Shown here: piece after piece, positions 32,211-47,850 of the stretch | How the letters are laid out: every line of letters starts with the position of its first letter | How positions within the stretch are numbered: position 1 is the stretch's first letter | From: a virus | IMG/VR virus record: IMGVR_UViG_3300037069_001879 | Coordinates: 1-52,363 of that record | DNA: 52,363 bases | Strand: one strand, 5' to 3' | Notes under the pieces: model-generated | The model's input: only the letters and a program-made list of their open reading frames with translations | What the model was told of the DNA's origin: nothing | Database searches by the model: none | Position numbers and translations under genes: made by a program

Positions 32211-33413
32211 TTAAAACGGTACTGTGCCGGCTTTGAAGTATGTGCCCCCCACGTTTTCCAAATATTTGTTGTCAACCAAGAAGTTTAGGAACCCGTCTTT
32301 GCCCGATATTTTAGTCTCACCGATGTTATAGAATTTTACCATTTCGTAAACAATCCCTTTGCGGTCAAAGGTCAGCGTGTCGCTCGTAAACACGGCATCC
32401 ATGAAATCCTGGTGTATATCGGCGGGCAGCTCAGCGGGTTTTGCCTTGCGTTTTCGACCGTTATCCATCGTTACTTCTTTCGTTTCCTGGTTCAAGTTTT
32501 GACGGTTCCAGTCCTCAATTTTAATCAAATCTTCGTACCTGTGGAGCAGCGTTTCACCGTCAAATTGCATCTTAATGGCTGAGCTTACAAAGTGCTTGGA
32601 CATAAGGTTGGCTTTGACACAATGCAGATAATTGGTGTATGATTTACCGTCGGCTGATACGGATTGAGGGTCATTGCTGAGGGATAATATGGTACGTGGT
32701 TTCTGCGTGATCGCACCCGCGCCCTGGCTGTCAAACTTATCCAAGAAGATTTTACCCTCAGCCTGTTTTGGTGCCACTTTGCTTTTAGCAGCGTGGTGGA
32801 TTAAGATAATCGTTACTTGGTAAGTGTTGCAAATAGCTTGCAGCTTACTGAGTATTTTACGCGCGTGGCTGTTGCTGTTTATTTCGCCGTCAATCATTGT
32901 AAACAAGTCGCTGAGCGCGTCCATTATAATCACCTCGTACTTTTCGAGCTTTAAAAGGCTTACGATCTCAACTAACAGCGCGTCGAACGTGTCAAAATTA
33001 CTACCCTCGGTAAAGCTTATTTTAACATTGGTTGGGTCAAAATTGGCGTCCACCTTCGCAAGCGCGTAGGTTTGTTTTACTATGGCTTTGGTAAATTTCT
33101 GCCTACTGTCCTCTGTTGCGACGATCAGGCACCGCTTATGTTCGACGTTTAAGGGCAAGTCCATGAATGATGCAAAGCCAAGCGAAATGGAAAGACAAAG
33201 CTGGGTTGTGACCTGCGTTTTACCAATACCGTCCTCTCCTATCAGTACGCATAATGTGGACTTTGGTATCAGCTCAGGGATAAGAAATTTCTGCTCAAAA
33301 TCCTTTTCTTTCCATAGCTCAGCGAAGGTATATGTATTTTTCTCAACCGGTACAGGGATCGCGTTTACCTTATCAAGCTGGGTGGTAAGAAAATCCTTTT
33401 GAGCGTTGGGCAT
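32211..33413 (-). CDS. RepA-like RecA-fold ATPase (replicative helicase candidate)
   Basis: A 400-residue protein with a single RecA-type ATPase: Walker A GEDGIGKT (59-66), a catalytic Glu near 101 (VATEDS), Walker B VIIMDALSDL (161-170), and a sensor-like IILIHHAAK. This is the AAA_25/RepA layout, as in plasmid RepA and phage helicases. The last 70 residues look like a small winged helix. It lies next to the primase and the probable origin, so it likely loads or unwinds DNA for replication. The phage shows no other DnaB-like protein. Confidence 0.82.
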   Translation of the reverse strand: MPNAQKDFLTTQLDKVNAIPVPVEKNTYTFAELWKEKDFEQKFLIPELIPKSTLCVLIGEDGIGKTQVTTQLCLSISLGFASFMDLPLNVEHKRCLIVATEDSRQKFTKAIVKQTYALAKVDANFDPTNVKISFTEGSNFDTFDALLVEIVSLLKLEKYEVIIMDALSDLFTMIDGEINSNSHARKILSKLQAICNTYQVTIILIHHAAKSKVAPKQAEGKIFLDKFDSQGAGAITQKPRTILSLSNDPQSVSADGKSYTNYLHCVKANLMSKHFVSSAIKMQFDGETLLHRYEDLIKIEDWNRQNLNQETKEVTMDNGRKRKAKPAELPADIHQDFMDAVFTSDTLTFDRKGIVYEMVKFYNIGETKISGKDGFLNFLVDNKYLENVGGTYFKAGTVPF

Positions 33414-33499
33414 TTGTGTTGGTGTATCAGATCGTTTAAATAATATTTTTGGGGTCGGGGCTTGAATTTACAGCAAAAATTAGTGGCTGCAAAATAAAT

Positions 33500-33721
33500 C
33501 TACAGGTGTTGTCTTTCTTTTCGTGTCCTTCGCATAACATCATTTTTATAGTTGTTTAAACTTATCCTCGCTAACCGTCTTTCCTCGAGGTTAAACAGGT
33601 TAACGTTTTCTAAAATTATCTCCCTGTAGTCGAAATCCGATAGTATTTTTTTAAGTTTCCAAACCGCATCACGTTCATCCTTAGTCTGCCTGTCAATCAA
33701 AATTCCTTCCTCCTTTGTCAT
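33500..33721 (-). CDS. Small charged hypothetical protein (73 aa)
   Basis: A Glu/Lys/Arg-rich helical protein overlapping the helicase 3' end by 29 bp. It begins MTKEEGILIDRQTKDERD. Unknown function, possibly a helicase partner or regulator judging from the overlap. Confidence 0.6.
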   Translation of the reverse strand: MTKEEGILIDRQTKDERDAVWKLKKILSDFDYREIILENVNLFNLEERRLARISLNNYKNDVMRRTRKERQHL

Positions 33722-35342
33722 ATTGTAGTTTAAAATAATCGAATTGGTTTTTGGACATACCTTTTTTCTTTATCTGCTTTATGGCACGGTCGTAAGCGTC
33801 GGACGCTAAGAAACCAACGCCCGCAATCGAAATACAATTTGCCTCATAACGCGACGCCTCGTCCTCGGTCCTTTTTACGAGCGCGTCCTCAATATAGTTC
33901 CAACACGTTTCATTTATAAAGTAACCATTTTTAATGCAATATTTTACATATTCCTTAAAAGCGAACAGTCCTGGTTTTTGGATACCTTTAATATGCTTAC
34001 CCATTACATACAGCTTGTCAAAGTGCTTTAAGGATTTGATGTTTATTATTTTGTGCTGGTTTTCGGTCGTGATCTCAACAAGCTCCAACCCTATGATCTC
34101 CTTCGCGTTGTTTGTGCGAATTTGGTTACCGTCTTTATCCTCAGCTACAAAAACCGTGATCTCAATATCTTCAAATAATTCCCTGGTTTGCTTCGTGCCC
34201 ATGAAGTGGCGCGGCCAATCTATTTTACCTGTAATAACGCCCGAATGTTCGATAAGGCAACCCGCGTTATCAAGTATAATGCAATAAGGTTTGGCGCTTG
34301 CTGCTATGCGTTGTTTACGCTGTTCAATCGTTTGCGCGTCAGGGCCGTCCACCACGCCCGCAAGGGCCCGCGACCCTCGTCCAAGCATTTGTTCCACTAA
34401 GCTCAGCGACATGGTAGGACGGGCAAGCTGTATAAACTCAACGCCAGGAATGTCCACGCCCTCGGTCGCTATACCAACATTACACAGGATCAATATTTCC
34501 TTTCGCTTAAACGCTGCAAATATTTCTTTCCTGATCTCTTTGGGCGTTTCGGCGTCAATGTGGGCAGCAGTTATGCCACGCTCCTTGTACTGCTTAACGA
34601 TCTGCATGGAGTGGTGGACGTTAACGGCAAAGACTATACCCTGCTTGCCTGGGCAGTATTTTACCCAGCTGTCAACCAAGGGCGCAAGCTTTAACATGGC
34701 TTTTTCGGACTCCTCTTCGTCGTACTCACGCCCGCGCTTGCTGACTTTCGACATATCGGGAACGTCCACTATAAAGAAACGATATGGAACCAGGTAAGCC
34801 TCCTGCTGGAGCTCGAAACGTGTTTTATTTATAATGAGCTTGGTTTCCTTTGTACTGTCAGGCACCAGGTACCTAAAGCCTTTTCCGCTCAGCCTGTAAG
34901 GCGTAGCGGTTACGAGCAGCACCTTAGCGTTGGGATATTTGGCGAACAGGTTACCGTAGGAATTATCGTCCTGCGCGTGGTGCCCTTCATCAATTACAAT
35001 GAGATCAGCCGCAGGCAACTGCTGCCTGCGGGCAAGCGTCTGTATGCTCGCCACCTGGCATCTGAGATCAGGATTTGGCTTGCACTTCGCTTTTACGATA
35101 CCTGCAAAAATGCGGTTATCATATAGCGTCTGCCAGGTGTTCATTATCAACTCCTCCCTGTGAGCTACCACCATTACGTTTTTGTTTTGATACAAAAATT
35201 GTCTTACAACTTCCATAAAGGTTACGGTTTTTCCGCCGCCTGTGGCAAGTATAAACATAAGTATATCGTGGCTCGTCCAGCCCGCGAAAATGTCCCGCAA
35301 GCCTTCAGATTGATAAGGTCTAAATAGTAGTTTTTGACCCAT
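33693..35342 (-). CDS. Superfamily 2 DEAD/DEAH-type helicase
   Basis: A 549-residue protein with motif I ATGGGKT (33-39), motif Ia VVAHREELI, motif II DEGH (118-121), motif III TATPYRLSG and motif VI QMLGRGSR near residue 320. This is the set expected for SSL2/UvsW-type helicases used in recombination, fork restart or transcription-coupled processes. The C-terminal 170 residues are unrelated to the core and could bind DNA. It overlaps its upstream neighbour by one base. Confidence 0.9.
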   Translation of the reverse strand: MGQKLLFRPYQSEGLRDIFAGWTSHDILMFILATGGGKTVTFMEVVRQFLYQNKNVMVVAHREELIMNTWQTLYDNRIFAGIVKAKCKPNPDLRCQVASIQTLARRQQLPAADLIVIDEGHHAQDDNSYGNLFAKYPNAKVLLVTATPYRLSGKGFRYLVPDSTKETKLIINKTRFELQQEAYLVPYRFFIVDVPDMSKVSKRGREYDEEESEKAMLKLAPLVDSWVKYCPGKQGIVFAVNVHHSMQIVKQYKERGITAAHIDAETPKEIRKEIFAAFKRKEILILCNVGIATEGVDIPGVEFIQLARPTMSLSLVEQMLGRGSRALAGVVDGPDAQTIEQRKQRIAASAKPYCIILDNAGCLIEHSGVITGKIDWPRHFMGTKQTRELFEDIEITVFVAEDKDGNQIRTNNAKEIIGLELVEITTENQHKIINIKSLKHFDKLYVMGKHIKGIQKPGLFAFKEYVKYCIKNGYFINETCWNYIEDALVKRTEDEASRYEANCISIAGVGFLASDAYDRAIKQIKKKGMSKNQFDYFKLQYDKGGRNFD

Positions 35343-35797
35343 TACAAATCTATTAAACCGTTTGCGCTTATTGCCATTTTTGGACGCTCAACAAAAAATA
35401 GGTTTTCAGCTTCCAGGTTAGGAAACGCTTCCAGTATTCGGTCGATCAACTGCCGCGCCGAGATCGCTTCCACTAAGTGTTCGCCGCCTTGATCTAAAGG
35501 CACCCAGGCTTTAAACTCATAGTTTTTGATCTTATCATATTTGATAACCACGACGCCAAAAGGCGACTCCACCTGAGGTAATATGGGCTGGAATCCGTGC
35601 CCAAATTGGCTGAAATAAAAACACTTGGTTAGCGAAAACTGGGCAAATTCGATTTCGGATAGCTGGTATTTTACTGTAAACTGGGCGCCGTCTTTTGGAT
35701 CCTCGGTCATGGGGCGTATGCAAACAGGTAAGGGCCTAAACTGTGGCTGACTTTTCGCAAGCTTGCCATTTTGTTGTGGAAATTCTATTGGTTCCAT
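35342..35797 (-). CDS. Hypothetical protein (151 aa)
   Basis: A soluble protein between VRR-NUC nuclease and helicase, overlapping the helicase start by 1 bp. The N-terminus is Pro/Gln-rich, and the middle carries strands with FGVVVIKYDKIKNYEFKAWVP. No motif recognised. A cofactor of the replication or recombination enzymes is possible from position. Confidence 0.55.
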   Translation of the reverse strand: MEPIEFPQQNGKLAKSQPQFRPLPVCIRPMTEDPKDGAQFTVKYQLSEIEFAQFSLTKCFYFSQFGHGFQPILPQVESPFGVVVIKYDKIKNYEFKAWVPLDQGGEHLVEAISARQLIDRILEAFPNLEAENLFFVERPKMAISANGLIDL

Positions 35798-35801
35798 AAT
35801 G

Positions 35802-36188
35802 TTAAATGTATTGAGATAAATAGGAATTATACCATTTTACAAAGTCGTTATAATCCTTGCTTTCAAAACAGCAGCCGCCCGCCTCTAAAATCTCAGTCCT
35901 AAACTTTATTTGGTCTTTACTGAGCTTGTCGCGTCCGCGCTTCGTGTCCACCATTAAGGTCATTCCTATTGGTTTTAAGTGAGCGCCCACAAATCGCGTC
36001 TTTATTGTGGCTGCAATGTCATAAAAGCCCGTACGCGCCCCTGTTTTTCTAAAGAGCTGTAAACGCTCGTCCCAAACCCCTGTCGTGTTAACGCGGCTTG
36101 CTGAGTGCCCTCGCTCCAATAAAAAATTGATTATTCCTTTAGTGATATTATTGGTAGTCGCTTTAACCTTAATAGTTTTCGTCCGCAT
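35802..36188 (-). CDS. VRR-NUC-family nuclease
   Basis: A 128-residue protein with the PD-(D/E)XK core of VRR-NUC: GARTGFYDI (Asp57), LMVDTKRGRDKLSKDQ (Asp81, Lys83, Gln93) and GGCCFESKDYNDF. Stand-alone VRR-NUC proteins cut branched DNA and act in phage recombination and packaging preparation. It overlaps the ASCH-type gene by 20 bp, in the cluster of the DpdA and ParB-like genes. Confidence 0.82.
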   Translation of the reverse strand: MRTKTIKVKATTNNITKGIINFLLERGHSASRVNTTGVWDERLQLFRKTGARTGFYDIAATIKTRFVGAHLKPIGMTLMVDTKRGRDKLSKDQIKFRTEILEAGGCCFESKDYNDFVKWYNSYLSQYI

Positions 36189-36468
36189 CTTCGCCGCCCT
36201 CCTTTATTATATCGCGCTCAGCAAGCGACATACAGGCGTAACCTTTTGGCAGGCCAAAACCACCTGTACCTATCATTACGTAATCAACGTAACAGGTGAG
36301 CTGTCGCCCCGTGTAGTGCTTAGCCTTATTTGCAGGGTCGTACTCTTTTAATACGAGCATATCACCTTCCTTAAAAGGGCGGTCGTTTTTACGGATTTCA
36401 AATCGCTTTTTGCCTTCCCAAATTTTCTGAAAGAAGTGGGGCCAGGTCTTTAATTCGTGTACGTTCAT
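36169..36468 (-). CDS. DUF3850 (ASCH/PUA-like) protein
   Basis: I use ATG 36468 (MNVHELKTWPHFFQ), which starts 1 bp after the ParB-like stop. The 99-residue protein matches DUF3850 (PF12961): KTWPHFFQKIWEGKKRFEIRKNDRPFKEGDMLVL...YVMIG...PKGYACMSL. The fold is related to ASCH/PUA domains that bind RNA or modified nucleotides. Next to DpdA this raises the idea of recognition of the modified base, which is inference only. Confidence 0.82.
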   Translation of the reverse strand: MNVHELKTWPHFFQKIWEGKKRFEIRKNDRPFKEGDMLVLKEYDPANKAKHYTGRQLTCYVDYVMIGTGGFGLPKGYACMSLAERDIIKEGGEDADENY

Positions 36469-36469
36469 A

Positions 36470-36946
36470 TTAAAATAATGAGGTTTGATAATGTGCAGGA
36501 TTGTTGTCAAAATCCTCCCAGTTAAATTCTTTGAGCTGTTTGAAATTGTGTATCTCGTCGCGTGTATGATGCAATACATTGGCAAGACCTTTATAATTTA
36601 CCTCACCGTGTTTTAGCATCTCCTCGAGCATTTTAGCCATTCGTAAAACGTCAACGTTGCGGGATTGGTTTTCTATCATATTAATGGTTATACTATCAGC
36701 AGCGGTAAGGTTTTCAAAAACAAAGCATATCGCGTGTGTTATGCCCAAATCTTTAAGCGCCCTTAAAATGTCATTGCCGGCAACCAAAAAATATTCATTA
36801 AGTATATACTCAACCAATATGGGTTTAAATTGTCCATAACGCTTAACAATACAGTTGGTTACATGCTGCTCGTGTTTGGTTCGCTTGCTATGTTTAATAA
36901 GGTCGGTATTATATCCCAGGTCCTCAACGGGTATTATTTTAATCAT
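36470..36946 (-). CDS. ParB-like nuclease-domain protein adjacent to DpdA
   Basis: ATG 36946 overlaps the DpdA stop as ATGA, so translation is coupled to it. The 158-residue protein has a ParB N-terminal-like core: KIIPVEDLGYN, then QFKPILVEYILNEYFLVAGNDILRALKDLGI, matching the fold that binds CTP and, in related proteins, cuts or reads DNA. The Gly-x-x-Arg element appears as GNDILRA. Bacterial dpd modification clusters include DpdB, a ParB/DndB-like partner needed with DpdA for base insertion. The small size and adjacency here suggest an analogous helper, but this is an inference. Confidence 0.75.
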   Translation of the reverse strand: MIKIIPVEDLGYNTDLIKHSKRTKHEQHVTNCIVKRYGQFKPILVEYILNEYFLVAGNDILRALKDLGITHAICFVFENLTAADSITINMIENQSRNVDVLRMAKMLEEMLKHGEVNYKGLANVLHHTRDEIHNFKQLKEFNWEDFDNNPAHYQTSLF

Positions 36947-37821
36947 AATGCTAAGTTTCCTTCCCAATCTATACCCCTGTACATCCAGAGGTCGGTAAAA
37001 AAATATTCAAGCTGTTTATAGTGAGTGCAGGCCCATTCCTCTTTTACCTTGATCTCCTCGGGTTTGCGGAATGAATTGTGCATAAATATAGGAATGTTGC
37101 TCCTGATAAAGTGATCCTTTACAGGCGCGCAGGATAGCATCCTACCATTATTAAAAATCTGAAAAACGCCATACCTGACAACGGTACACCAACTGGAGCT
37201 ATCTACTGAGTAAAAAGGAAAGTCATACAGCAGATCGGCGCGCGTGAACGCGAAACCATGAACCTTTACCTTGGCATCATACGCTTTTTTCAAATAGCGA
37301 TTGTAGGGCAACATTGGTTGGCTTGGCCGGATGCCCTCTAACCCTATATATCCACTATGCGAAGTATCCAGCAGCTCGTCAAATTCGCGCTCGGTATTTG
37401 AGCTGTGAAAAACAGTTATGCACTTGTCGTAAACGCCCTCCGCTGCCATGATCTCGCGCCACTCGGTTACGCGCTTTTGACCCACAACCTCCTGCAAGTC
37501 AAGCTCCACGAAGTAGTCAAAATAGTTATACCATTCTTTTACCCATTCAAGGTATTTGGCAAAATACACCTCAGGATCCTGCTGAGCTTTTTTACCTTTT
37601 TTCTCTTTCTTGCCCGTAACCGACACGCCCATTTGTTCAAAAAAACTATGGGCGCCACTATCAATGGTTATAATACCCGTGTGGCCTTTTGGTTTTAAGT
37701 TTGGCAGCTCAGCGTTTACCTTTTTGTGGTAGAAGTAAGTAAGGAACAAGTTGCTATCCAAAGGCAGCTCAATTTTATAACTGGACTTTTGCGTTTCATA
37801 CGCTGCAAAGTAAATCCTCAT
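36943..37821 (-). CDS. dpdA: DpdA-like DNA guanine transglycosylase
   Basis: A 292-residue protein with TGT/DpdA features: IDSGAHSF (53-60), VELDLQE (105-111), HGFAFTRADLL (188-198) and the signature YSVDSSSW (204-211). DpdA enzymes swap guanine in DNA for a 7-deazaguanine base made by the FolE-QueD-QueE route, which this phage also encodes at 41.0-43.8 kb. It is shorter than queuosine TGTs and lacks their zinc-site CxCxxC. Start and stop overlap the glycosyltransferase and ParB-like genes by 4 bp each. Assignment is by motif pattern, and subfamily (DpdA1, 2, 3) cannot be decided by eye. Confidence 0.85.
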   Translation of the reverse strand: MRIYFAAYETQKSSYKIELPLDSNLFLTYFYHKKVNAELPNLKPKGHTGIITIDSGAHSFFEQMGVSVTGKKEKKGKKAQQDPEVYFAKYLEWVKEWYNYFDYFVELDLQEVVGQKRVTEWREIMAAEGVYDKCITVFHSSNTEREFDELLDTSHSGYIGLEGIRPSQPMLPYNRYLKKAYDAKVKVHGFAFTRADLLYDFPFYSVDSSSWCTVVRYGVFQIFNNGRMLSCAPVKDHFIRSNIPIFMHNSFRKPEEIKVKEEWACTHYKQLEYFFTDLWMYRGIDWEGNLAL

Positions 37822-38828
37822 ATAAGCGATTTAACAGCGTCCATAATTACGTCCACATTATTCAGCACACCCGCAGGCTGCGGAGCCGCGCAATCGACAA
37901 GCTCCAGCGTGTCGTCGATCTCGGCCTCATTATCGTACAGGTTCATAATTGGAACAAACTCATTATAGCAGGCGCGATTGGGCGCCACGATCATACAGTC
38001 ATAGTACAAAGCTTCCTGCAGGGTGTAACCAAACGTCTCCTGGCGCGCTGTTGATAGATACCATTTTGCCTGATCGAGGATTTTATAATACTGCTGTTTT
38101 GAGAGATCGAAATAATAATCCACATTTTCCATGCCCGCAAACTGTTCGCATAGCTTGTCTTTTTTGCCGCAGGATGTAATTACTATTTGGTGTGCTGTTT
38201 CCATGGCGAAGCGATAAAGCACGTCCATGCCTTTTTCGTGACAAAGACGGTGTGGCCAAATAATATAAGGCGCTTTAGGTAACGAGCCTTTTTTATGGAC
38301 GCTTTCGCACCACTCAGGGCTCCAGGGCTGACCTGTGTTTTTTACTTTATGAAGCGGTTGGCGAAAATAAGAAATAACCCGCTGTCTGTGAAACTCGCTA
38401 CCTACCAATATAAGGTCGCAAGCATCGTGCCACCCTTGCTCTGAGCTGTCGGCCCATTTATCAAGGTTACGCACAAAGTCCATGTTATCAGCGCGACCTG
38501 CATGGTTAAATGCAGCGATTGACACGCGAATACCAAGCAGCTCAGCCATATATTTAACAGACTCCAGGCCAGGAAAAAATATGTCACCAAATAGGAATAT
38601 GTCGCCCGTTTCTATTTGGCCCTCCTTGAACATATAGGCTATAATACCCAGTTGCTCAGTTTTATAACGTATGGTACCTGCAATGTCTAAAAACTGCCCA
38701 TTGGTTATTTTACTGTATCCGCTGCCTGGGTTGATCGTCAAATTACAGCGAGGAGATAGAACGTCAAAAACCATTCCCGAATACCGTTCTTCCAGCGGCT
38801 CAACCGGGACAAAAATTATTTTGCTCAT
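37818..38828 (-). CDS. GT4-type glycosyltransferase
   Basis: A 336-residue protein with a GT-B fold signature: a donor-side EX7E element (E264-TFGYTLQ-E272), followed by YYDCMIVAPN, and a C-terminal Rossmann half with ITSCGKKDKLC. The N-terminal acceptor half is less conserved, as usual. The stop overlaps the DpdA start by 4 bp (ATGA), tying its expression to DNA modification. Targets could be a modified base in phage DNA or a host surface glycan, and neither is shown by sequence. Confidence 0.82.
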   Translation of the reverse strand: MSKIIFVPVEPLEERYSGMVFDVLSPRCNLTINPGSGYSKITNGQFLDIAGTIRYKTEQLGIIAYMFKEGQIETGDIFLFGDIFFPGLESVKYMAELLGIRVSIAAFNHAGRADNMDFVRNLDKWADSSEQGWHDACDLILVGSEFHRQRVISYFRQPLHKVKNTGQPWSPEWCESVHKKGSLPKAPYIIWPHRLCHEKGMDVLYRFAMETAHQIVITSCGKKDKLCEQFAGMENVDYYFDLSKQQYYKILDQAKWYLSTARQETFGYTLQEALYYDCMIVAPNRACYNEFVPIMNLYDNEAEIDDTLELVDCAAPQPAGVLNNVDVIMDAVKSLI

Positions 38829-38844
38829 TTGTTTTGTTGTTAGC

Positions 38845-39282
38845 TTATTCGCATCGGTCGCCTGTTTGTTTGTAACGAAACCAAGGGATGAATCCTTTCG
38901 GTGTCCAAAAACCCCATTGCCTAACTTTTTTAAGTGTCAGTACAAGAGTCCAAACGGGCTTTTCAATTTCTAATTTATGTTTAAACTCTGCAGGTCTGTA
39001 AAGCAATGAACCTGCTTTAAAATACTTGGCAACCTTGCGCTTTTTGCTGCCCCAAGGCTGTGGCGTGTGATCTTTGTATATATCCTCCTCTGAGTGCTCC
39101 AGGTAGCCGCCTTTTAATATGAAGCTATAAAACGCCCAAGGGTGATCGTGTAAACAATCGTCGTCGGAAAGTATTATTTTATGAATTTTAATGGAAAACC
39201 ACTTGCATTGAAAAATGTTCCACCTGATAAGATATTCCTCGTTATCGTTTCGCGTAATAATACGCTTGCTCAAAAACTTCAT
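38845..39282 (-). CDS. Cupin-fold protein
   Basis: ATG 39282 is used (145 residues). It lies 5 bp after the upstream stop, and an in-frame ATG at 39309 is the alternative. The core reads CLHDHPWAFYSFILKGGYLEH (His45, His47, Glu62 candidates), with RPAEFKHKLE (His102) as the fourth ligand, the two cupin motifs. Such proteins bind a metal ion and may act as dioxygenase, decarboxylase, isomerase or simple binding protein. Adjacent to glycosyltransferase and DpdA, a role in finishing the modified base (for example acting on its 7-carboxyl) is possible but untested. Confidence 0.7.
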   Translation of the reverse strand: MKFLSKRIITRNDNEEYLIRWNIFQCKWFSIKIHKIILSDDDCLHDHPWAFYSFILKGGYLEHSEEDIYKDHTPQPWGSKKRKVAKYFKAGSLLYRPAEFKHKLEIEKPVWTLVLTLKKVRQWGFWTPKGFIPWFRYKQTGDRCE

Positions 39283-39287
39283 TAGGG

Positions 39288-39791
39288 CTATGCTTTTAAT
39301 TTTATCCAACCATAAGAAATTAGATCGTCAATGGATAAGTCCAGGTAATCAAGGGCTACACCTTTAGATTCCAGGTATTGGTACTGCTTGACTGAAACCT
39401 TACTAAAGTCTTTTGAGCCGTCCAAAAAGGCAACCTCACATTTTACATACTTACCATTGGTTTGTAACCACTGAAATAATACAGTTGGAATATCTTTATA
39501 TTTTTTGTCGAAAGACACGACCGATAATCCTTCCCTGTAATTTAACTGCATGGTTATAAGCTCAGTATATTCCTCGTCGGTTATACTGGACGCGGAGCGC
39601 AGATTTAACCAAACCTTGCTTAATGGTACGCCGCTAAAGCCGCTTTCCCCGACTTTATATAACGCGCTGTTTTCGTACACGCCAAGCATTATTTGTTTCT
39701 TGGTTTTAGCATTGAAATTATATTCCATTTCCTGACCTATGTGGTGGCCAAAAAATTTAACCTTGTTTTCAATCGTGTTTGCGGTTTTCAT
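39288..39791 (-). CDS. Hypothetical protein (167 aa)
   Basis: A charged soluble protein with mixed composition. The C-terminal SIDDLISYGWIKLKA is helix-like. It lies between the cupin gene and the HRH-motif protein in the operon that contains the modification genes. No signal, TM segment or known family was recognised. Confidence 0.55.
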   Translation of the reverse strand: MKTANTIENKVKFFGHHIGQEMEYNFNAKTKKQIMLGVYENSALYKVGESGFSGVPLSKVWLNLRSASSITDEEYTELITMQLNYREGLSVVSFDKKYKDIPTVLFQWLQTNGKYVKCEVAFLDGSKDFSKVSVKQYQYLESKGVALDYLDLSIDDLISYGWIKLKA

Positions 39792-39794
39792 GGC

Positions 39795-40172
39795 TTATAT
39801 GGGTAGGTGGTTGAACATTTGTACTTCGGCGCCGTTTTCGCCGTCCTCTAATACTGAGCAACTTTCCAACTCAAAGTTTTTAGCGACAAGCAGCGCAATA
39901 GTTTCGCAGCTCATGGAGCCAAAATTAAGCTCGTCGGAGCTCTCTTTAAAGATTGGCAAACTGTCCTTAAGGAACTTGGTAATGTCACGCTTTAAGGTAA
40001 TAATCTCCACATCCCTATCCTCGTGTGTTACCACTTTTTTGGCCCGTATATGGAAAACGTGTCGGTGAAGCAAGCGCAGGTAACTAACTTCGGGAAACGG
40101 ACACTGGGGCCAACAATGCACCCCCGCAATTTGCAGGGATGCCATTACTACTGTTTGGTGATCTCTTGCCAT
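39795..40172 (-). CDS. HRH-motif protein, possible T-fold relative
   Basis: A 125-residue protein. The segment YLRLLHRHVFHIRAKKVV followed by EDRDVEIITLKRDITKFL recalls the strand-helix order of T-fold enzymes such as QueD (His-x-His-x-x-x-Ile then an acidic DF-like helix). The usual cysteine and histidine zinc ligands are not all present. It starts on the last base of the upstream stop (40172). A pterin- or metal-binding role is possible but unproven. Confidence 0.5.
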   Translation of the reverse strand: MARDHQTVVMASLQIAGVHCWPQCPFPEVSYLRLLHRHVFHIRAKKVVTHEDRDVEIITLKRDITKFLKDSLPIFKESSDELNFGSMSCETIALLVAKNFELESCSVLEDGENGAEVQMFNHLPI

Positions 40173-40915
40173 TACTTAGCTATTTCCTGGGCTTTAACAA
40201 TGTCCCGCACTCTCTCGGCTTTTGCAGCCTTGTCAGGGTTTTTGGTGTAATCCTTAATCACGTTACGGATGTGACTTTCAACGCTGCACTCGATTATTTC
40301 CATAATCTCTTTAATGGTTTTCTTGTTGTCGCTATGCTCTAACCATATTTTTTGGCTTTTGCTCAGCTCTGTTGGTGTTGCAGGTTTAGCAGCTTCTTTT
40401 TTAGGCTTACCTGTGATCGCCTCGGGCTGGTATAACTCGTTAAAAATCTGCTCAGTATCCACCCAATCACGGCTACCAGTATCGCTGGTTAAACGAACCT
40501 TTATTTTATCGCCCTTTGCTTCTTTAGCACACACGGCGCCGGTGGTAGCGTTGCGAAACTGACCGTCCGAAGTAACCTCATAACGAGAGTATTTTGGGAT
40601 CCTTTTCGCTTTGCTTGGCTCAGGCATTGGCGGCGTGGCCGGAACGGTTGGCGTGGTGGGCGCGGCTGCTGGTGTTCCACCGATTGCATCCTCAAACGAG
40701 GTGGATGTGTCGGTGTCGGTTTTTGGAGCCTTCGGCGCTTTCGGTGTTTTGGGCTCTTTTTTCTCCCATGTTGCAAGCGTTTCGATTTTCAGATACCTTT
40801 TACCGGCAACCTCAATTTCTGAGTTGATTGGCTCGATGCCTGGTTTAAGGGTAAATTCTTTAACCTCTGATTTTAATAACAAGCCTTCGGCGGCTGTTGG
40901 TTTTGCTGTTTTCAT
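40172..40915 (-). CDS. NUMOD4-like domain protein with Pro-rich linker
   Basis: A 247-residue protein. A small N-terminal beta domain of about 50 residues is followed by a Pro/Thr/Ala-rich linker (about 55-100). A NUMOD4-like segment follows, YSRYEVTSDGQFRNATTG, with conserved pattern S-D-G-x-F-R-N. The C-terminal 70 residues are charged helices. NUMOD domains occur in homing endonucleases and other DNA-binding proteins. No GIY-YIG or HNH catalytic motif is visible here, so DNA binding is more likely than cutting. First gene after a regulatory region at 40.96-41.02 kb. Confidence 0.65.
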   Translation of the reverse strand: MKTAKPTAAEGLLLKSEVKEFTLKPGIEPINSEIEVAGKRYLKIETLATWEKKEPKTPKAPKAPKTDTDTSTSFEDAIGGTPAAAPTTPTVPATPPMPEPSKAKRIPKYSRYEVTSDGQFRNATTGAVCAKEAKGDKIKVRLTSDTGSRDWVDTEQIFNELYQPEAITGKPKKEAAKPATPTELSKSQKIWLEHSDNKKTIKEIMEIIECSVESHIRNVIKDYTKNPDKAAKAERVRDIVKAQEIAK

Positions 40916-40963
40916 TTTTTAAATTTTTAGCGTTTAAATTGTTGCTGTTACTTAGTGAGTGTA

Positions 40964-41017
40964 AATAACGGTACAATAAACCACTTAACCAAATTTATTT
41001 TAAAATATTTTTTAAAA
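40964..41017 (-). promoter_or_regulatory. AT-rich core repeat, copy 3, with weak leftward promoter
   Basis: A core repeat at 40998-41017 precedes a perfect -33 TTTG (40993-40990 on the minus strand), exactly as in copies 1 and 4. The expected -7 box near 40964-40971 is degenerate. It would drive genes 40172-40915 and downstream, including the DpdA cluster. Confidence 0.5.
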
Positions 41018-41018
41018 T

Positions 41019-41564
41019 TTATTTTAAATGACTAAAAAACTCCTGCTTAACCGCCGGGTTATCTTTAAAGTTACCCAACAGGGCGCAGGTAACGGTTTCG
41101 CAGTTATGTTTTTTGACACCACGCATTTCCACGCAAAGGTGCCTTGCTGTGATCTGAACCGCTACGCCCTTAGGGTCAAGCTTGTCAAATAAGAAATCGG
41201 CAACCTGCGTGGTTATGCGTTCCTGGTTCTGCAATCTACGCGCGAAGTGATCTAACACCCTGGGCAGCTTGCTCAGCCCTACAATAAACTCGCCAGGGAT
41301 ATAAGCAATAGAGGCGGTTCCAAAAAAGGGCGCCATGTGGTGTTCGCATAAACTGAAAAAAGGAATATTCTTAACCACCACCATTTCGTCGTAATTCTCA
41401 CCTTCAAATACCGTCATTTCAAATTTATCAACGGTAAGAAACTCAGTAAGGAATTTTACATAACGTCTTGGTGTGTCACGCAAGCCCTCGCGTGTGCTAT
41501 CGTCGAAACAGTCAATTAGTTGTTTAACCGCCCTTTCGGCGTTCGTTTTAGTTTGCTCGGTCAT
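41019..41564 (-). CDS. folE: GTP cyclohydrolase I
   Basis: A 181-residue type I GTP cyclohydrolase. The zinc-binding residues are Cys73, His75/His76 (SLCEHH) and Cys144 (RHLCVEM), with the GTP-binding KLPRVLDHFARRLQNQER segment. It converts GTP to dihydroneopterin triphosphate, the first step of the 7-deazaguanine pathway. It ends the 45.1-41.0-kb leftward operon and overlaps the short gene upstream by one base. Confidence 0.95.
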   Translation of the reverse strand: MTEQTKTNAERAVKQLIDCFDDSTREGLRDTPRRYVKFLTEFLTVDKFEMTVFEGENYDEMVVVKNIPFFSLCEHHMAPFFGTASIAYIPGEFIVGLSKLPRVLDHFARRLQNQERITTQVADFLFDKLDPKGVAVQITARHLCVEMRGVKKHNCETVTCALLGNFKDNPAVKQEFFSHLK

Positions 41565-41761
41565 TAGTCCTTGATCGTATAGTTTTCGTTAACAAATTCA
41601 GTTACTTTTTCAAGGATTGCCTCGATTGCAGCATCATACCTATTAATAGTCAGGCATTTAGTTTCGTCGCCGCCCTTAGTAAAAAGAGCTGTGGAATTTT
41701 CGTGAACGATCTCCATTATATCCTGTCTTAGGAATGGATCGATCTCAATTTTCTGTCCCAT
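41564..41761 (-). CDS. Small hypothetical protein between queE and folE (65 aa)
   Basis: ATG 41761 is preferred (5 bp after the QueE stop); an upstream start would overlap queE. The protein is acidic and helical (DPFLRQDIMEIVHENSTALF, DAAIEAILEKVTEFVNE). It shares a base with the folE start. Function unknown. Confidence 0.65.
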   Translation of the reverse strand: MGQKIEIDPFLRQDIMEIVHENSTALFTKGGDETKCLTINRYDAAIEAILEKVTEFVNENYTIKD

Positions 41762-41765
41762 GGTG

Positions 41766-42524
41766 TTATACTCCTGTTTTTTGATTCCATACTGAGATAT
41801 GGATCCTGTGTGAATAATTATAACCAAATTCAAGGGCCAGTCCTACAATGCTCTCAGCCATTGCGTCCAGCTCGTTTCTATTGTCAGCGGCAGCCATAAG
41901 GTACACCTGTGATTGGTACATTATATCCTGTATGTAGGTTTTTTCGATCTCTAAAAGATCGGCGCGATCTTTAACCACGAATTTAAAGCAGGTTTTTGGG
42001 CCACGAAAAGAAAGAGCCTCAATTACCTCGCGTTTAACCCTTTTAAAGTAAGGCTCACCACTGTTTTGCAGCTTAGGGCTGACATTCCAAAACTTAACCA
42101 GCGAAAACAGTTTATCACTGGGCATTATAGTACCGTTTGTTTCGATCTCAACCGTTAAGCCAGGTATACCAATATCCAAGGACAAGTACTTTATAAAATC
42201 ATAAATACTATCCTGCTGCAAAAGTGGTTCACCACCCGTTATTATAAGGTGGGCGCCTTGTTGTAGGTTAGATATAAACGCCCTGCCCCCCATGTCATCC
42301 ACGAGCTGATTAAAGGTTACCGACTTACCTTTTAACCAAACCTCGATGCTGTCACAACGCCAGGTGGCGCCATTGTGTAACTGTCCATCGCGCTCAGTAC
42401 CTTTGCCGCCACACATAAGGTTACAGCCTGCAAGACGTAAAAAATAAGCTCGTTTTCCGGCTGTCTGCCCTTCGCCCTGAACGGATAAAAAATGCTCAGC
42501 GACGGCAATGGTTTCTTTGTTCAT
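41766..42524 (-). CDS. queE: 7-carboxy-7-deazaguanine synthase (radical SAM)
   Basis: A 252-residue radical SAM enzyme converting 6-carboxy-tetrahydropterin to 7-carboxy-7-deazaguanine (CDG). The FLSVQGEGQTAGKRAYFLRL opening and LIITGGEPLLQQ and ETNGT motifs are typical of QueE. The iron-sulfur ligands are C34, C38 and C57, a CX3CX18C arrangement instead of the usual CX3CX2C, with an 18-residue insertion between the second and third cysteine. The order queE-folE with queD nearby shows a clustered pathway. No queC was found in the genome, so the pathway may end at CDG. Confidence 0.93.
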   Translation of the reverse strand: MNKETIAVAEHFLSVQGEGQTAGKRAYFLRLAGCNLMCGGKGTERDGQLHNGATWRCDSIEVWLKGKSVTFNQLVDDMGGRAFISNLQQGAHLIITGGEPLLQQDSIYDFIKYLSLDIGIPGLTVEIETNGTIMPSDKLFSLVKFWNVSPKLQNSGEPYFKRVKREVIEALSFRGPKTCFKFVVKDRADLLEIEKTYIQDIMYQSQVYLMAAADNRNELDAMAESIVGLALEFGYNYSHRIHISVWNQKTGV

Positions 42525-42751
42525 TATTTGGATGTTTTTTCAAGGTTGCTAATTTCACGCGCAAGGTACCATTGAGCTTTTTTTAAATCTTCAATGGTTT
42601 TAGAGGTATCTTTTTTACCGGCACGTGATATATATTTTACAGTGTTACCCAAGTTAAAACCTAAGTTTTGATCCTCAATATAATCTATAACCTCTATCTT
42701 GCCAGAATTATAATGAGAAGGGTGGTTTACATTATTATTGTCCATATCCAC
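42524..42751 (-). CDS. DUF3310 protein
   Basis: A 75-residue protein with the family pattern NNVNHPSHYNSGKIEVIDYIEDQNL, then GNTVKYISRAGKKD and KTIEDLKKAQWYL (PF11753). The family is frequent in phages near nucleotide-metabolism genes and has been discussed as a nucleotide kinase or regulatory protein, with no firm function. It overlaps thyX by 17 bp and queE by 1 bp. An in-frame ATG at 42745 is an equally good start. Confidence 0.85.
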   Translation of the reverse strand: MDMDNNNVNHPSHYNSGKIEVIDYIEDQNLGFNLGNTVKYISRAGKKDTSKTIEDLKKAQWYLAREISNLEKTSK

Positions 42752-43382
42752 GTGCTTTTGCTATAATGGGTAAATTTTCTGTGAATATATCGCGAATAGC
42801 CTGCGCGATTAAACGCGCTTCTTTTTGCGCGTGTTCATCAAGGCGGATATCCAAAAAGTGTATCCAGCTACGTATTGAACCAGTCATAAAAATGGTAGTA
42901 CTGGAGCACATAGGTAATATCATACGGGCGCACTCTTTGGCAACACCCAAATCCAAAAGTATGTTATAAAGCTCCCGGCCTTTTTTAATGTAATCCGCTA
43001 TTTCAGCCGAAGCAGTTGCAGGTTTCAGGTCGCGGTCGCGGTAAATAAGTGGGTCAATCAAATCCGTACTGGATTGACGATTTATAACCGCTTGCTGCCT
43101 AAGCTCTATGGGCTCCATTTTTTCTACCTTGGAATAACGCTGAGAAAACTCCTGGAATGTAAAGCTACGGTGGCGCAAAAGCTGTATGCCTATCGCTTTG
43201 GAGGTTTCTATTTCGACGGTCATATAACTATGCTCGAAAGGGCTCCAATGTTTGTTTTTGATAAGGTAGTTTATCAAGTTTTCAAGGTGTTCGGTTTTGT
43301 CGCTTCGTGAGCTACTAACACGGGCGATCTCAACAATATTAACCTCTGCATCAGGGGTTAATGATTTAAGTTTTACATTCAT
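42735..43382 (-). CDS. thyX: FAD-dependent thymidylate synthase
   Basis: A 215-residue ThyX with the signature RHRSFTFQEFSQRY (70-83), close to the classical RHRxxSxNxxSxRY. It methylates dUMP to dTMP using methylene-tetrahydrofolate and FAD. Its presence beside folE and queDE shows a local nucleotide and base-synthesis cassette that would boost DNA precursor supply and modified bases. Confidence 0.95.
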   Translation of the reverse strand: MNVKLKSLTPDAEVNIVEIARVSSSRSDKTEHLENLINYLIKNKHWSPFEHSYMTVEIETSKAIGIQLLRHRSFTFQEFSQRYSKVEKMEPIELRQQAVINRQSSTDLIDPLIYRDRDLKPATASAEIADYIKKGRELYNILLDLGVAKECARMILPMCSSTTIFMTGSIRSWIHFLDIRLDEHAQKEARLIAQAIRDIFTENLPIIAKARGYGQ

Positions 43383-43384
43383 AA

Positions 43385-43810
43385 TTATTTAAAGCTTAAT
43401 ATAGTTACGGTGCTGGAAACGGTTTCTTTCAATTTGATTTGCACGACATTAAGGCCCGCTGAGCGAAGCGCGTTTAATAAGTTTTGCGCTATATTCTCGC
43501 AGCTTGTCGGGTAAGGATATACAACCATTTTTAAATCGTCGTTACATTCCTTGATGTAAGCGCGTAAGTAGTCCAGCAGCGGGTCGGTTTCGTGTATTAA
43601 CATAGCGTGATCCAACTGCTTAAATATCGGCTCAGCGATACTATCAATGTCAGAAAACAGCATGGTAATACCGCCCTGTTGGAATGCTTTTTCAAATTGA
43701 ACGGTTATGGTGGCATAGTATGTATGCCCATGCAAGTTTTTACACTTGTCGTTAATCAGCTCATTCCTGTGAGCCGCATAAAAATGGTACTTTTTTTCAA
43801 TGTTTATCAT
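43385..43810 (-). CDS. queD: 6-carboxytetrahydropterin synthase
   Basis: A 141-residue T-fold enzyme with zinc ligands His14, His27 and His29 (HFYAAH...CKNLHGHTY), nucleophile Cys23 and the DHAMLI segment, all typical of QueD. It turns dihydroneopterin triphosphate into 6-carboxy-tetrahydropterin for QueE. It lies 2 bp upstream of thyX and overlaps the PD-(D/E)XK gene by one base, within the leftward early operon. Confidence 0.92.
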   Translation of the reverse strand: MINIEKKYHFYAAHRNELINDKCKNLHGHTYYATITVQFEKAFQQGGITMLFSDIDSIAEPIFKQLDHAMLIHETDPLLDYLRAYIKECNDDLKMVVYPYPTSCENIAQNLLNALRSAGLNVVQIKLKETVSSTVTILSFK

Positions 43811-44520
43811 TAGGCGGCAATCATTAAGTTATCAATATTTAGGTCGTACACTATATGTTTGTAAAGATAACCAAGTTTTCCATATTGGAACCTACCTTGA
43901 TTATATGTCGCGTCGCCGCGCTCAATCGCAAATTTAAAAATAGGGTATTTGCCATTTTTAGCTCGTTTCTTACCTATGCCAAAATACCACATGCGGTCGA
44001 TCTCAGCAAGGTCCATATATATGGCGCCCTGGCGAAAATATTTAAAATGTTGTATGCTCTCAGTAAACGCCCGCTGAGTTTCGCAGGCGGTAGTCTTTAT
44101 GTCTGCGGCTTGCTTAACGTGTTTGTTTAAAATATCAAACTTACACCGCGTAGGCATTTGAATGACATTACCTGCAAACTCGTATTTGAACGCTTGCCTT
44201 AAAACCACGTGCTGAAACGTTGCGCCGTTTAATATGAGCTTAAGGACAGGGTCGTTTACCGCGCTCTCTGCCATTGCTTCGGCGCGTCGCCAATCAAAAG
44301 CGTGAAAGGGTATTATCTCGCCTGAGCTTTCCTCTATTAAAGAGTTGGTTTTAAAATCCAGCTTATTGCGTTCTGTTACCATTGCGTCCACCAGGTTACC
44401 AAAATTATAAATATTTTGCAGGTTTTCACAATTATTCTCAATCGCGTGGTAGGCATTGAAAAAGTCGCCCAGGGTTGAATTGGAAACAAAGCGCGGAAAG
44501 TCTTTATAGTAGTTAAGCAT
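43810..44520 (-). CDS. PD-(D/E)XK nuclease, RecE/DUF3799-like exonuclease
   Basis: A 236-residue protein with Asp129 (TRCKFDIL) and D140-I-K142-TT as core residues, preceded by a Glu/Asp-containing helix. The arrangement matches phage RecB/DUF3799-type exonucleases that make 3' overhangs for recombination. The RecT-like annealing protein is encoded 2 kb away in the adjacent transcription unit. It overlaps the next upstream gene by 8 bp and queD by 1 bp. Confidence 0.82.
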   Translation of the reverse strand: MLNYYKDFPRFVSNSTLGDFFNAYHAIENNCENLQNIYNFGNLVDAMVTERNKLDFKTNSLIEESSGEIIPFHAFDWRRAEAMAESAVNDPVLKLILNGATFQHVVLRQAFKYEFAGNVIQMPTRCKFDILNKHVKQAADIKTTACETQRAFTESIQHFKYFRQGAIYMDLAEIDRMWYFGIGKKRAKNGKYPIFKFAIERGDATYNQGRFQYGKLGYLYKHIVYDLNIDNLMIAA

Positions 44521-44854
44521 TGGTTTTAACGTATATCATTGTTAATGGCCACTGCTCCTCTTTCCCGTTTACCTCGACCGTTGCCCAGGATTGACTGCTC
44601 ATATATTTACCCAGCCCTGTAAAATCAGGTTTGAGATCGAATATAACAAGCTCTTTAAGTTTTGCAGGAATTAAGGGTGTGCGGACACTTCGCTCCAACA
44701 TTAGATCAAGGTCAAACTCGCAGCTTCCAACCTTTCTGTGGTAGTCTGCAATCGAGGTTAAGCCCTCGTATGTGTTAAATCTTATTGGGTGATCTTCCAT
44801 TTTCTTAGCGTTTTTTCTACTGGCAATGGCCACCTCTATGGGTGACCTTTGCAC
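44513..44854 (-). CDS. Hypothetical protein (113 aa)
   Basis: A basic protein. The N-terminal 25 residues are Lys/Arg-rich, followed by strands (LVIFDLKPDF, WATVEVNGKEEQWPLTMIYV). The 8-bp overlap with the nuclease gene suggests coupling, possibly to a recombination function. No family recognised. Confidence 0.6.
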   Translation of the reverse strand: MQRSPIEVAIASRKNAKKMEDHPIRFNTYEGLTSIADYHRKVGSCEFDLDLMLERSVRTPLIPAKLKELVIFDLKPDFTGLGKYMSSQSWATVEVNGKEEQWPLTMIYVKTNA

Positions 44855-44905
44855 GGTGCTGTTCGCAGCTTCCTGTATTCAGGGATGCCCTACTGAGCAA
44901 GCTCT

Positions 44906-45121
44906 TTAATTTACTATCGTACAATCCTCGAAGTGGATTATACCTGTAAGGTATCTGTGTGATACAGATTTAAGATTTTCGTTATTTTCAAATACAACTT
45001 TGTAACCACCTTCAAAGCTTAATCCGGCGTTGCTTTCAACTACTATGGTTTCACCTATGAATTGATTTGACCAAGCAGCGTGATTTTTTGATTTTTTGAT
45101 TGTTACTTTTAAAGTTTCCAT
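44906..45121 (-). CDS. Small hypothetical protein, first gene after promoter (71 aa)
   Basis: A beta-rich small protein (METLKVTIKKSKNHAAW, then GLSFEGGYKVVFE). A well-formed promoter lies 37 bp upstream, with an AT-rich core repeat beside it. No family recognised. It heads the operon that runs through queD, thyX, queE and folE. Confidence 0.65.
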   Translation of the reverse strand: METLKVTIKKSKNHAAWSNQFIGETIVVESNAGLSFEGGYKVVFENNENLKSVSHRYLTGIIHFEDCTIVN

Positions 45122-45157
45122 TTTGTTATGTTTTTAGCGTGTTTGTTAATGACATAA

Positions 45158-45188
45158 CAAAGATAGGAATAAAATGGTGTAATCCAAA
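45158..45188 (-). promoter_or_regulatory. Leftward promoter of the queDE-folE operon
   Basis: Minus strand TTTG (45188-45185), a 19-bp spacer and TATCTTTG (45165-45158) make a perfect Bacteroidota promoter. The first ATG is at 45121. Confidence 0.85.
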
Positions 45189-45192
45189 TTTA

Positions 45193-45212
45193 TTTTAAAA
45201 TATTTTTTAAAA
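45193..45212. repeat. AT-rich core repeat, copy 4
   Basis: TTTTAAAATATTTTTTAAAA lies 4 bp upstream of the -33 box of the promoter at 45158-45188, at the same spacing as copies 1 and 3. Confidence 0.8.
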
Positions 45213-45237
45213 AATTTTCTGGACTACACCAATTACA

Positions 45238-46506
45238 CTATTTCTTAATAATGGTTCCTATTTTTTCGTGTATTTCCAAGCCGTCCACTTTGGCGTCGCA
45301 ATTATTGGCAAAGAAGGTTAAAATCTTATCTGCCCAGTCTTGCAGGATAGGTTCTCCTTTGTCGTCCACGCTAACCGCTTTAGTGGTTTTGTCACGCTTG
45401 TAATGGCCCTCGAAAGATGGGTTGGAATAACAAGCGAACAGTACCGCGCTAAAGATTTTAACAATATCAGCGGGCGGGCCTGTGATCTTCGCATATTTGG
45501 TTTTGCGTACACCAGTAAGCTCGCCATTTTGCTGAGCCGCTACCTGTGCGTTAAACTCGGCGTCCAACGTTTCTTTTTGCAGTTGCGTAGCTGCTTCCTG
45601 TTTGTTGGTTTCGATCTGCTGGTTAAACAAGTCGGTAGCTTTCTTGGTTTCGGCCTCAGCCTGTTTTGCCATGTCTGCTTTCTTAGCTTCGGCAGCAGCA
45701 GCGTTGGTTTTTTCCAAGTCGCGTATTTCTGTCAGCTTAACCTTGAGATCAGGCAGCTTGTTTTTAAACTCCAGGACGATTGGCTCAGCCTGAGCGATAT
45801 AAATTTTATTCACCTCGTCGTAGGTGAGCTGCTGTTTTTGCTCAGCTAAAAACTGACTGAAATCCTCGGTCGTGATCTTTGATTTATCGTAAGGGATAAT
45901 AAACCAATCCTCAAAGTCGGCCTGTTTCAATGAGGGTTTAAGTGAAAACCGCTTGGCTTTTTCGTCGAAGTTTTCCAGCGTAAACGTTGCAAGGTATTCT
46001 GAAATGCCCTCACGCAAGGCAGACGCGCGTTTTAAGATATTGGCGTGGAACGTTGTGGTAAACTCTGACCTTAACCTTGCAAGCTCGGTTTCTTTATTGC
46101 GCTGCGCCTCGATTTTTTTATTGTTCTCCTCGATCTGAGCGGCTTTTTTAACTGCGTAGTTATCACGCAATAGCTTAACGCGCAAGGCTTCGGAGCCTGT
46201 ATGCGATTTTTCAAGGGAAACCGTTTTTTCAGGTTTCATTAGCTCCTCTTTAATGAGATCGGTATTTTTGGTAATACGCTCCCTCATTTCCTTGATCTTA
46301 TCGTAGGTCAGTTTCGACTTAACCAGGTAGGCGTTCGCTTTCTCGTCCTCTTCGTCGTTTTCGACCTGTTTAATAGTACTGAGCGCGGCAGCGGCGCGCT
46401 GGGCGCTCGCTACCATTTCGGGATATAAGGTCTTGGCGTTTTCCAGCGCGCCTGTTAGTACCAATTCTAAATCGGTACCTTGATTTGTTGCAGGTGATGT
46501 TTCCAT
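45238..46506 (-). CDS. Coiled-coil protein downstream of RecT (422 aa)
   Basis: ATG 46506 is chosen because the RecT stop is at 46508, and longer frames would overlap recT heavily. The N-terminal 90 residues carry an acidic helix. The centre is a long Lys/Glu/Ala-rich coiled coil (about 90-170 and 240-330). The C-terminal 90 residues (ITGPPADIVKIFSAVLFACY) form a separate domain. Phage genomes often pair such a DUF1351-like protein with RecT. A role as recombination mediator or nuclease partner is possible. Confidence 0.65.
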   Translation of the reverse strand: METSPATNQGTDLELVLTGALENAKTLYPEMVASAQRAAAALSTIKQVENDEEDEKANAYLVKSKLTYDKIKEMRERITKNTDLIKEELMKPEKTVSLEKSHTGSEALRVKLLRDNYAVKKAAQIEENNKKIEAQRNKETELARLRSEFTTTFHANILKRASALREGISEYLATFTLENFDEKAKRFSLKPSLKQADFEDWFIIPYDKSKITTEDFSQFLAEQKQQLTYDEVNKIYIAQAEPIVLEFKNKLPDLKVKLTEIRDLEKTNAAAAEAKKADMAKQAEAETKKATDLFNQQIETNKQEAATQLQKETLDAEFNAQVAAQQNGELTGVRKTKYAKITGPPADIVKIFSAVLFACYSNPSFEGHYKRDKTTKAVSVDDKGEPILQDWADKILTFFANNCDAKVDGLEIHEKIGTIIKK

Positions 46507-46507
46507 T

Positions 46508-47659: not shown

Positions 47660-47850
47660 TAATTCATAAAGATTGGTGAGGAATATTGAAACTCAGGCAG
47701 GTCGATAAAGAATAATTTAACCTGGGCGCTATGTTGAGCGCGTGGCGCCATTAGTCGGGCGACTGCTGTGGCTTCAAAGCTTGAACCGTCGGAGCCTACT
47801 GTTATGGAAGTAAGTTTTTTGCAACGGTATAGGTTTGTGAACTTTAACAT
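47659..47850 (-). CDS. Small hypothetical protein, first gene of leftward operon (63 aa)
   Basis: A short protein reading MLKFTNLYRCKKLTSITVGSD, with strands and no known motif. It starts about 25 bp after the leftward promoter and its stop overlaps the RecT start by one base. Small first genes of early operons often encode host-takeover proteins, but function here is unknown. Confidence 0.6.
   Translation of the reverse strand: MLKFTNLYRCKKLTSITVGSDGSSFEATAVARLMAPRAQHSAQVKLFFIDLPEFQYSSPIFMN

Follow-up and report, generated by a model that had tools for sequence, protein, structure and literature searches.

In the virus record considered here (IMG/VR record IMGVR_UViG_3300037069_001879, positions 1 to 52,363, all 52,363 nucleotides of which are ‘the window’), genes for a glycosyltransferase (GT), for DpdA, i.e., a phage DNA guanine transglycosylase, and for a ParB-like protein lie together on the minus strand. 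In combination with FolE, QueD, QueE, and a QueD-fold protein which is referred to here as f2, these on balance probably constitute a post-replicative DNA hypermodification operon, one which does without QueC and which would place a sugared 7-deazaguanine in phage DNA. The genes, as identified by profile match and by predicted structure, including from AlphaFold2 (AF2) models, are the following.

43385..43810, minus strand: QueD (6-carboxytetrahydropterin synthase), CPH4 step; PF01242 E=1.2e-20, TIGR03367 E=6.2e-18
41766..42524, minus strand: QueE; TIGR03963 and TIGR04508, E about 1e-17; 41.5% identity to Cellulophaga phage QueE
41019..41564, minus strand: FolE (GTP cyclohydrolase I); PF01227 E=2.9e-61
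39795..40172, minus strand: f2, predicted QueD/PTPS-fold (T-fold) paralogue; AF2, Foldseek, hhalign
37818..38828, minus strand: glycosyltransferase, GT-B group-1 type; PF00534 E=5.5e-8
36943..37821, minus strand: DpdA (phage DNA guanine transglycosylase); phrog_887 E=6.8e-29
36470..36946, minus strand: predicted ParB-fold DpdA partner, 158 aa; AF2, Foldseek, adjacency counts, motifs

A conserved neighbourhood within a larger early region

FolE, QueE, and QueD are found in the same minus-strand run as GT, DpdA, and ParB, a single run which extends from 32211 to 47850 and which displays frequent overlaps of -1, -4, -20, etc. The GT stop shares ATGA (37818-37821) with the start of DpdA, and a further ATGA (36943-36946) is both the DpdA stop and the start of the ParB-like gene. 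The stop of the latter is followed after 1 bp by the start of a DUF3850 gene (36169-36468), which in turn shares 20 bp with a gene at 35802-36188, these two also being on the minus strand. An earlier reading made from the letters alone (the sequence-only reading) had these coordinates, strands, and overlaps right, and had viewed 36169-38828 as a coupled cluster of glycosyltransferase, DpdA, ParB-like, and ASCH-type genes. Because four-base overlaps occur throughout the early region, however, gene coupling by itself is weak evidence, and the ATGA overlaps were therefore rejected as the mark of a special four-gene unit. It is the conservation of GT, DpdA, and ParB as neighbours in other phages that goes beyond chance. 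From the proposed cluster, that is, GT-DpdA-ParB survives as a conserved modification cassette, while DUF3850 and the VRR-like gene fall outside of the conserved set. The interval was also drawn too narrowly, as the core has in addition FolE, QueE, QueD, and above all f2, which had been missed, all of them outside of 36169-38828.

Conservation was assessed by means of a profile scan of IMG/VR for relatives of the window DpdA, which yielded 80 loci; the neighbour counts given below refer to 78 non-redundant loci. Loci were clustered at 80% identity, and neighbours were scored with hidden Markov models built in the course of the analysis.

f2 and the absence of QueC

Clustering of neighbouring genes indicates that GT-DpdA-ParB loci share the f2 family (about 115 amino acids), the members of which are annotated as hypothetical in isolate genomes; a search with the window f2 against genome contigs returned no relatives. 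The AF2 model of f2 (pLDDT 93) has as its best Foldseek match E. coli QueD (4ntk; E=5.3e-5, TM about 0.67), and hhalign of f2 against phage QueD gives E=1.8e-5 with a probability of 78%. Three zinc-type His (H19, H36, H38) plus L32 are invariant in 118/118 members, with Leu32 aligning to the position of the catalytic Cys and with the Asp-His (LDH) motif missing. The separate QueD of the window is complete by alignment (C23, D67-H68, E129). As the zinc His are kept, as the catalytic residues are lost, and as a full QueD is present elsewhere, f2 would appear to be a QueD-fold protein with a different task. T-fold enzymes bind bases resembling 7-carboxy-7-deazaguanine (CDG); f2 possibly decarboxylates CDG. 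Phage bases made without QueC, dCDG and dDG, along with a CDG decarboxylase, DpdL, are reportedly described in work from Cui in 2023 (NAR). It may be that f2 is this DpdL.

QueC and f2 do not keep company. QueC is seen with 0/23 of the DpdA-first loci which have both GT and f2, versus 23/29 of those having neither, and with 0/78 of the f2-first loci, while among GT-first loci it is present in two only (L239, L240), both of which are without f2. A further locus, L025, possesses GT and QueC and is without f2, and so fits this exclusion. QueC was searched for as well in the 52-kb window, with none found, and searches of whole records gave no QueC match passing the cut-off, either in the contigs with GT/f2 or in the isolates BUCT-ZZ01, X1, Phosso, ACP17, PA5oct, and MA9V-3. 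Sequence and statistics together point to f2 replacing QueC, whatever the reaction that f2 may carry out. The window QueE (41766..42524) is 41.5% identical to that of Cellulophaga phages phiSM and phi38:2. Two loci, L022 and L026, have two QueE-like radical SAM genes within one f2-GT locus.

A glycosyltransferase tied to the 7-deazaguanine pathway

The window GT possesses the conserved donor-site R, K, and E of GT-B group-1 enzymes, and these residues are retained by its relatives (R194 in 94/95, K199 in 92/95, E272 in 91/95). Scanning IMG/VR with the window GT sequence alone returned no relatives. For those GT-first loci which have at least 3 kb on both flanks, f2 is nearby in 35/38. GT-first clusters include FolE/QueD/QueE in 43/49 cases, and f2 or any of these in 48/49, with the GT usually adjoining dpdA or f2. 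The DpdA-first set is similar, with GT present in 27/27 of the f2 loci; of the four GT loci lacking f2, three have the GT at the edge of their contig. Among phage isolate records, those in which this GT family occurs possess f2 also (16/16), such isolates including Acidovorax ACP17, Pseudomonas PA5oct relatives, Xanthomonas X1, Synechococcus BUCT-ZZ01, and Sinorhizobium Phosso. On sequence grounds, that is, the GT family belongs to the 7-deazaguanine pathway, being tied to f2 and to FolE/QueD/QueE. Given this near-exclusive association, adjacency to dpdA or f2, and a conserved active site, the GT presumably adds a sugar to the modified base. A PIG-L-like deacetylase (PHxDDE) is present beside GT, or fused to f2, at L025:4873-5379, L028:3586-4326, and L089:6738-7520; as a pointer to N-acetyl-hexosamine this was set aside, the gene being rare and its Pfam match weak (E=0.0045).

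A tentative alternative, to which we give appreciably less credence than to a sugared base, is that only an already known kind of QueC-less system is present, with f2 being DpdL, with the DNA containing dCDG or dDG, both of which are known phage bases, and with the GT serving in some side role off of the base. The absence of QueC from f2/GT records and from the window speaks for this, as does the occurrence of f2 without GT in Cellulophaga phiST and in Roos. The near-confinement of the GT family to such loci, however (35/38 by f2, 48/49 by f2 or FolE/QueD/QueE), as well as its usual position adjoining dpdA or f2, is left unexplained by a side role.

DpdA and its ParB-fold partner

It is established that DpdA places 7-deazaguanines in DNA (PMC6884629). 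The window protein belongs to the phage DpdA family by profile match and by possession of both TGT-type Asp. These, Asp54 (DSGA) and Asp207 (VDSSSW), are candidate catalytic residues by analogy with TGT, and they are kept in 130/131 relatives. A ParB-fold gene directly adjoins dpdA in 57 of the 78 non-redundant loci, as compared with 11 of 1117 other genes, and the pairing of DpdA with a short ParB-fold protein, as put forward in the sequence-only reading, is accordingly conserved. The two genes often overlap by 4 or 34 bp in the surveyed loci, and within a larger set both gene orders are found (ParB then DpdA in 54, DpdA then ParB in 49). Annotated isolates with the pair are Arthrobacter Mufasa8, Fusobacterium phiFN37, and Cellulophaga phi38:2 (in which ParB ends with SVNLF and the gene directly upstream of dpdA ends with QVNLF). 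With mycobacteriophage CRB2 the pair has been noted previously, and its ParB-like gene proposed as dpdB (PMC6392294).

Eight of the 78 loci have a Cys-rich module instead of ParB, either fused to the DpdA C-terminus (L023, L024, L025, L030, L035, L042) or as a separate gene (L005, L047), and no locus has both. Fusion of ParB into long DpdAs was considered but rejected, with ParB signal absent from these proteins and their C-terminus being this different, Cys-rich module. The dpdA genes of phages 9g (L179) and CAjan (L177) are without a ParB neighbour; in both, dpdA adjoins a clamp (DNA polymerase processivity factor) gene, directly or one small gene off.

Profile support for the ParB-like protein consists of ParB_N (E=2.9e-4, below the Pfam cut-off) and phrog_620 (E=2.7e-7), while a tblastn search with it against phages gave no match. 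Its AF2 model (pLDDT 86) matches Noc/ParB in Foldseek (E=3.3e-9, TM 0.69, 154 columns), spanning the ParB N-domain as well as the central helix-turn-helix, i.e., the predicted structure confirms the supposed ParB/Noc fold. The sequence-only reading had suggested a minimal analogue of bacterial dpd, with the ParB-like protein as a DpdB-type ATPase powering DpdA and with the ASCH protein (DUF3850) reading the modified base. Fold and conserved DpdA pairing are both in keeping with that suggestion, as too is the dpdB proposal of the CRB2 authors. There is no DpdB or DndB match to the window protein in PADLOC or NCBIfam, however, and its nucleotide-site G-x-x-R instead reads GNDI, with Ile60 replacing an Arg that is kept in 90/103 DpdA-adjacent ParBs. 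With that Arg absent, with no DpdB/DndB match, and with the protein ending in a clamp-binding-like QTSLF, a DpdB-type ATPase role is unlikely. As additionally DUF3850 is not conserved, and as 9g DpdA displays basal insertion without a partner (PMC6884629), we view the analogue as a whole as quite improbable.

The strict form of the C-terminal clamp-binding-like motif, Q-x-D/S/N-L/M-F, is present in 8 of the 3407 genes of surveyed loci which were scanned for it, and five of those eight are Arg-less ParBs beside DpdA, versus 0/90 for the Arg-bearing, DpdA-adjacent ParBs. The Arg-less proteins end with QTSLF (window), QMDMF (L108), QQDLF (L125 and L132, identical ends), and QINLF (L154). With such ends on Arg-less proteins, ParB in the window lineage therefore looks like an adaptor, possibly one to the sliding clamp.

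A proposed pathway and what weighs against it

The FolE, QueD, and QueE route to CDG is established chemistry, and CDG would be the starting point here. Upon this, f2 would act in QueC's place, possibly as a decarboxylase, and DpdA would then swap DNA guanine for the base so produced. The ParB-fold protein would bind DpdA, DNA, or both and, within the window lineage, its C-terminal QTSLF would probably tether DpdA to the sliding clamp. The dedicated GT would subsequently add a sugar to the inserted 7-deazaguanine, with this sugared base conferring resistance to host nucleases. More specifically, though here we see the matter as evenly poised, the DNA of this phage as well as of the Pseudomonas, Xanthomonas, Acidovorax, Sinorhizobium, and Synechococcus phages would contain a 7-deazaguanine that is shaped by f2, inserted by DpdA, and glycosylated by the GT, a class of base which is so far undescribed. 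That the phage precursor is instead converted by host QueC to preQ0, with the DNA carrying dPreQ0 as in CAjan and with GT and f2 incidental, is the least credible possibility, for although QueC is common in bacteria (12-14 of 14 control genomes), it is missing wherever f2 is found in loci of phages that are not related (0/78), a pattern which incidental loss would not be expected to produce.

A number of points nevertheless weigh against hypermodification of the sort proposed. The product of a decarboxylase, 7-deazaguanine, would be without an obvious group to which a sugar could be joined by O- or N-linkage, implying that f2 does something else, that the GT uses the CDG carboxylate, or that the linkage is unusual. 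The GT is also optional, with f2-DpdA-ParB found without it in L116, L120, L123, L126, and Faecalibacterium phage Roos, and with Cellulophaga phiST (order QueD-QueE-FolE-MazG-f2) having f2 but no GT match across its whole genome. GT furthermore occurs together with QueC in L025, L239, and L240, and its substrate is therefore not tied to the f2 product. ParB in turn is not universally required, as 9g DpdA is active in E. coli without ParB, though at a low level (dPreQ0 at 0.3% of G; PMC6884629). Vibrio phage D479 (L098) is a possible exception to the f2/QueC exclusion, having a partial QueC-like match, above cut-off, at record positions 153872-154066 (32.8 bits, profile positions 133-201) that is far from f2. 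Contigs, too, are possibly incomplete, and kinship among sequences inflates the statistics despite clustering at 80%.

Should a sugared base indeed be present, then sugar-bearing deazaguanines would join the known phage DNA bases and f2 would gain a testable role. There would be a bearing as well on the position of ParB-like genes beside phage base-modifying enzymes. As isolates with f2-GT genes exist (ACP17, PA5oct relatives, X1, BUCT-ZZ01, Phosso), analysis of their DNA can reveal the chemistry directly, though targeted mass spectrometry restricted to listed nucleosides would overlook a glycosylated one.

Comparison with known systems

To our knowledge no glycosylated 7-deazaguanine is known, and no description of one in DNA was found in the literature searched. 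The phage DpdA pathway of 9g, CAjan, and Rosebush (Hutinet 2019, PMC6884629) has in common with the window a phage-encoded DpdA, FolE, QueD, and QueE, and the replacement of guanine. The window differs from that pathway in having no QueC or Gat-QueC and in possessing f2 and GT as extras, as well as, relative to 9g and CAjan, a ParB-fold partner. The QueC-less dCDG/dDG systems with DpdL, as reportedly described in Cui 2023, would share a CDG-level route without QueC, and the system here could be an extension of these, one to which a dedicated GT and a ParB partner have been added. The sequence-only reading's interpretation is borne out in part, and the DNA base is possibly a new one.

Bacterial dpd islands similarly pair DpdA with a ParB-superfamily neighbour, but here that neighbour is short, is of the ParB/Noc type, and lacks the nucleotide-site Arg. 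Neither DpdC nor restriction genes were found among the neighbouring genes scanned, which are a part of the window's genes. The system belongs with those of phage DpdA and not with the bacterial dpd islands. With the T-even DNA glucosyltransferases, which act on hydroxymethyl-dC, there is a shared logic as proposed, i.e., of sugar being added to a modified base after replication, though base and enzyme family (GT group 1) both differ, and base exchange here is by DpdA. ParBc domains are found beside other phage base modifiers too (CmoX, PMC12783734; PADLOC MTase_II models with N-terminal ParB), where the same small DNA-binding module is employed, whereas here ParB is paired with a base-exchange enzyme.

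Neighbours outside of the conserved set

Two further genes follow the ParB-like gene.

36169..36468, minus strand: DUF3850 (ASCH/PUA-like); PF12961 E=3.8e-25, ASCH E=4.6e-6
35802..36188, minus strand: possible small nuclease (VRR-like); phrog_93 E=8e-4, phrog_5702 E=4e-3

Of about 175 related loci, a single one has a further copy of DUF3850, and none has a homologue of the VRR-like gene. For lack of such conservation, the roles of base reader for DUF3850 and of partner for VRR were both rejected; the idea that the ASCH protein reads the modified base, in particular, goes unsupported, with DUF3850 in only one other related locus. The VRR-like gene does overlap DUF3850, by the 20 bp noted above, but its VRR-NUC label has behind it weak PHROG nuclease matches and no Pfam match at E<=0.01. 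Absent from related loci as well, the gene directly upstream of the GT (38845-39309) matches phrog_4786, which is annotated as cysteine dioxygenase, at E=5.7e-38.

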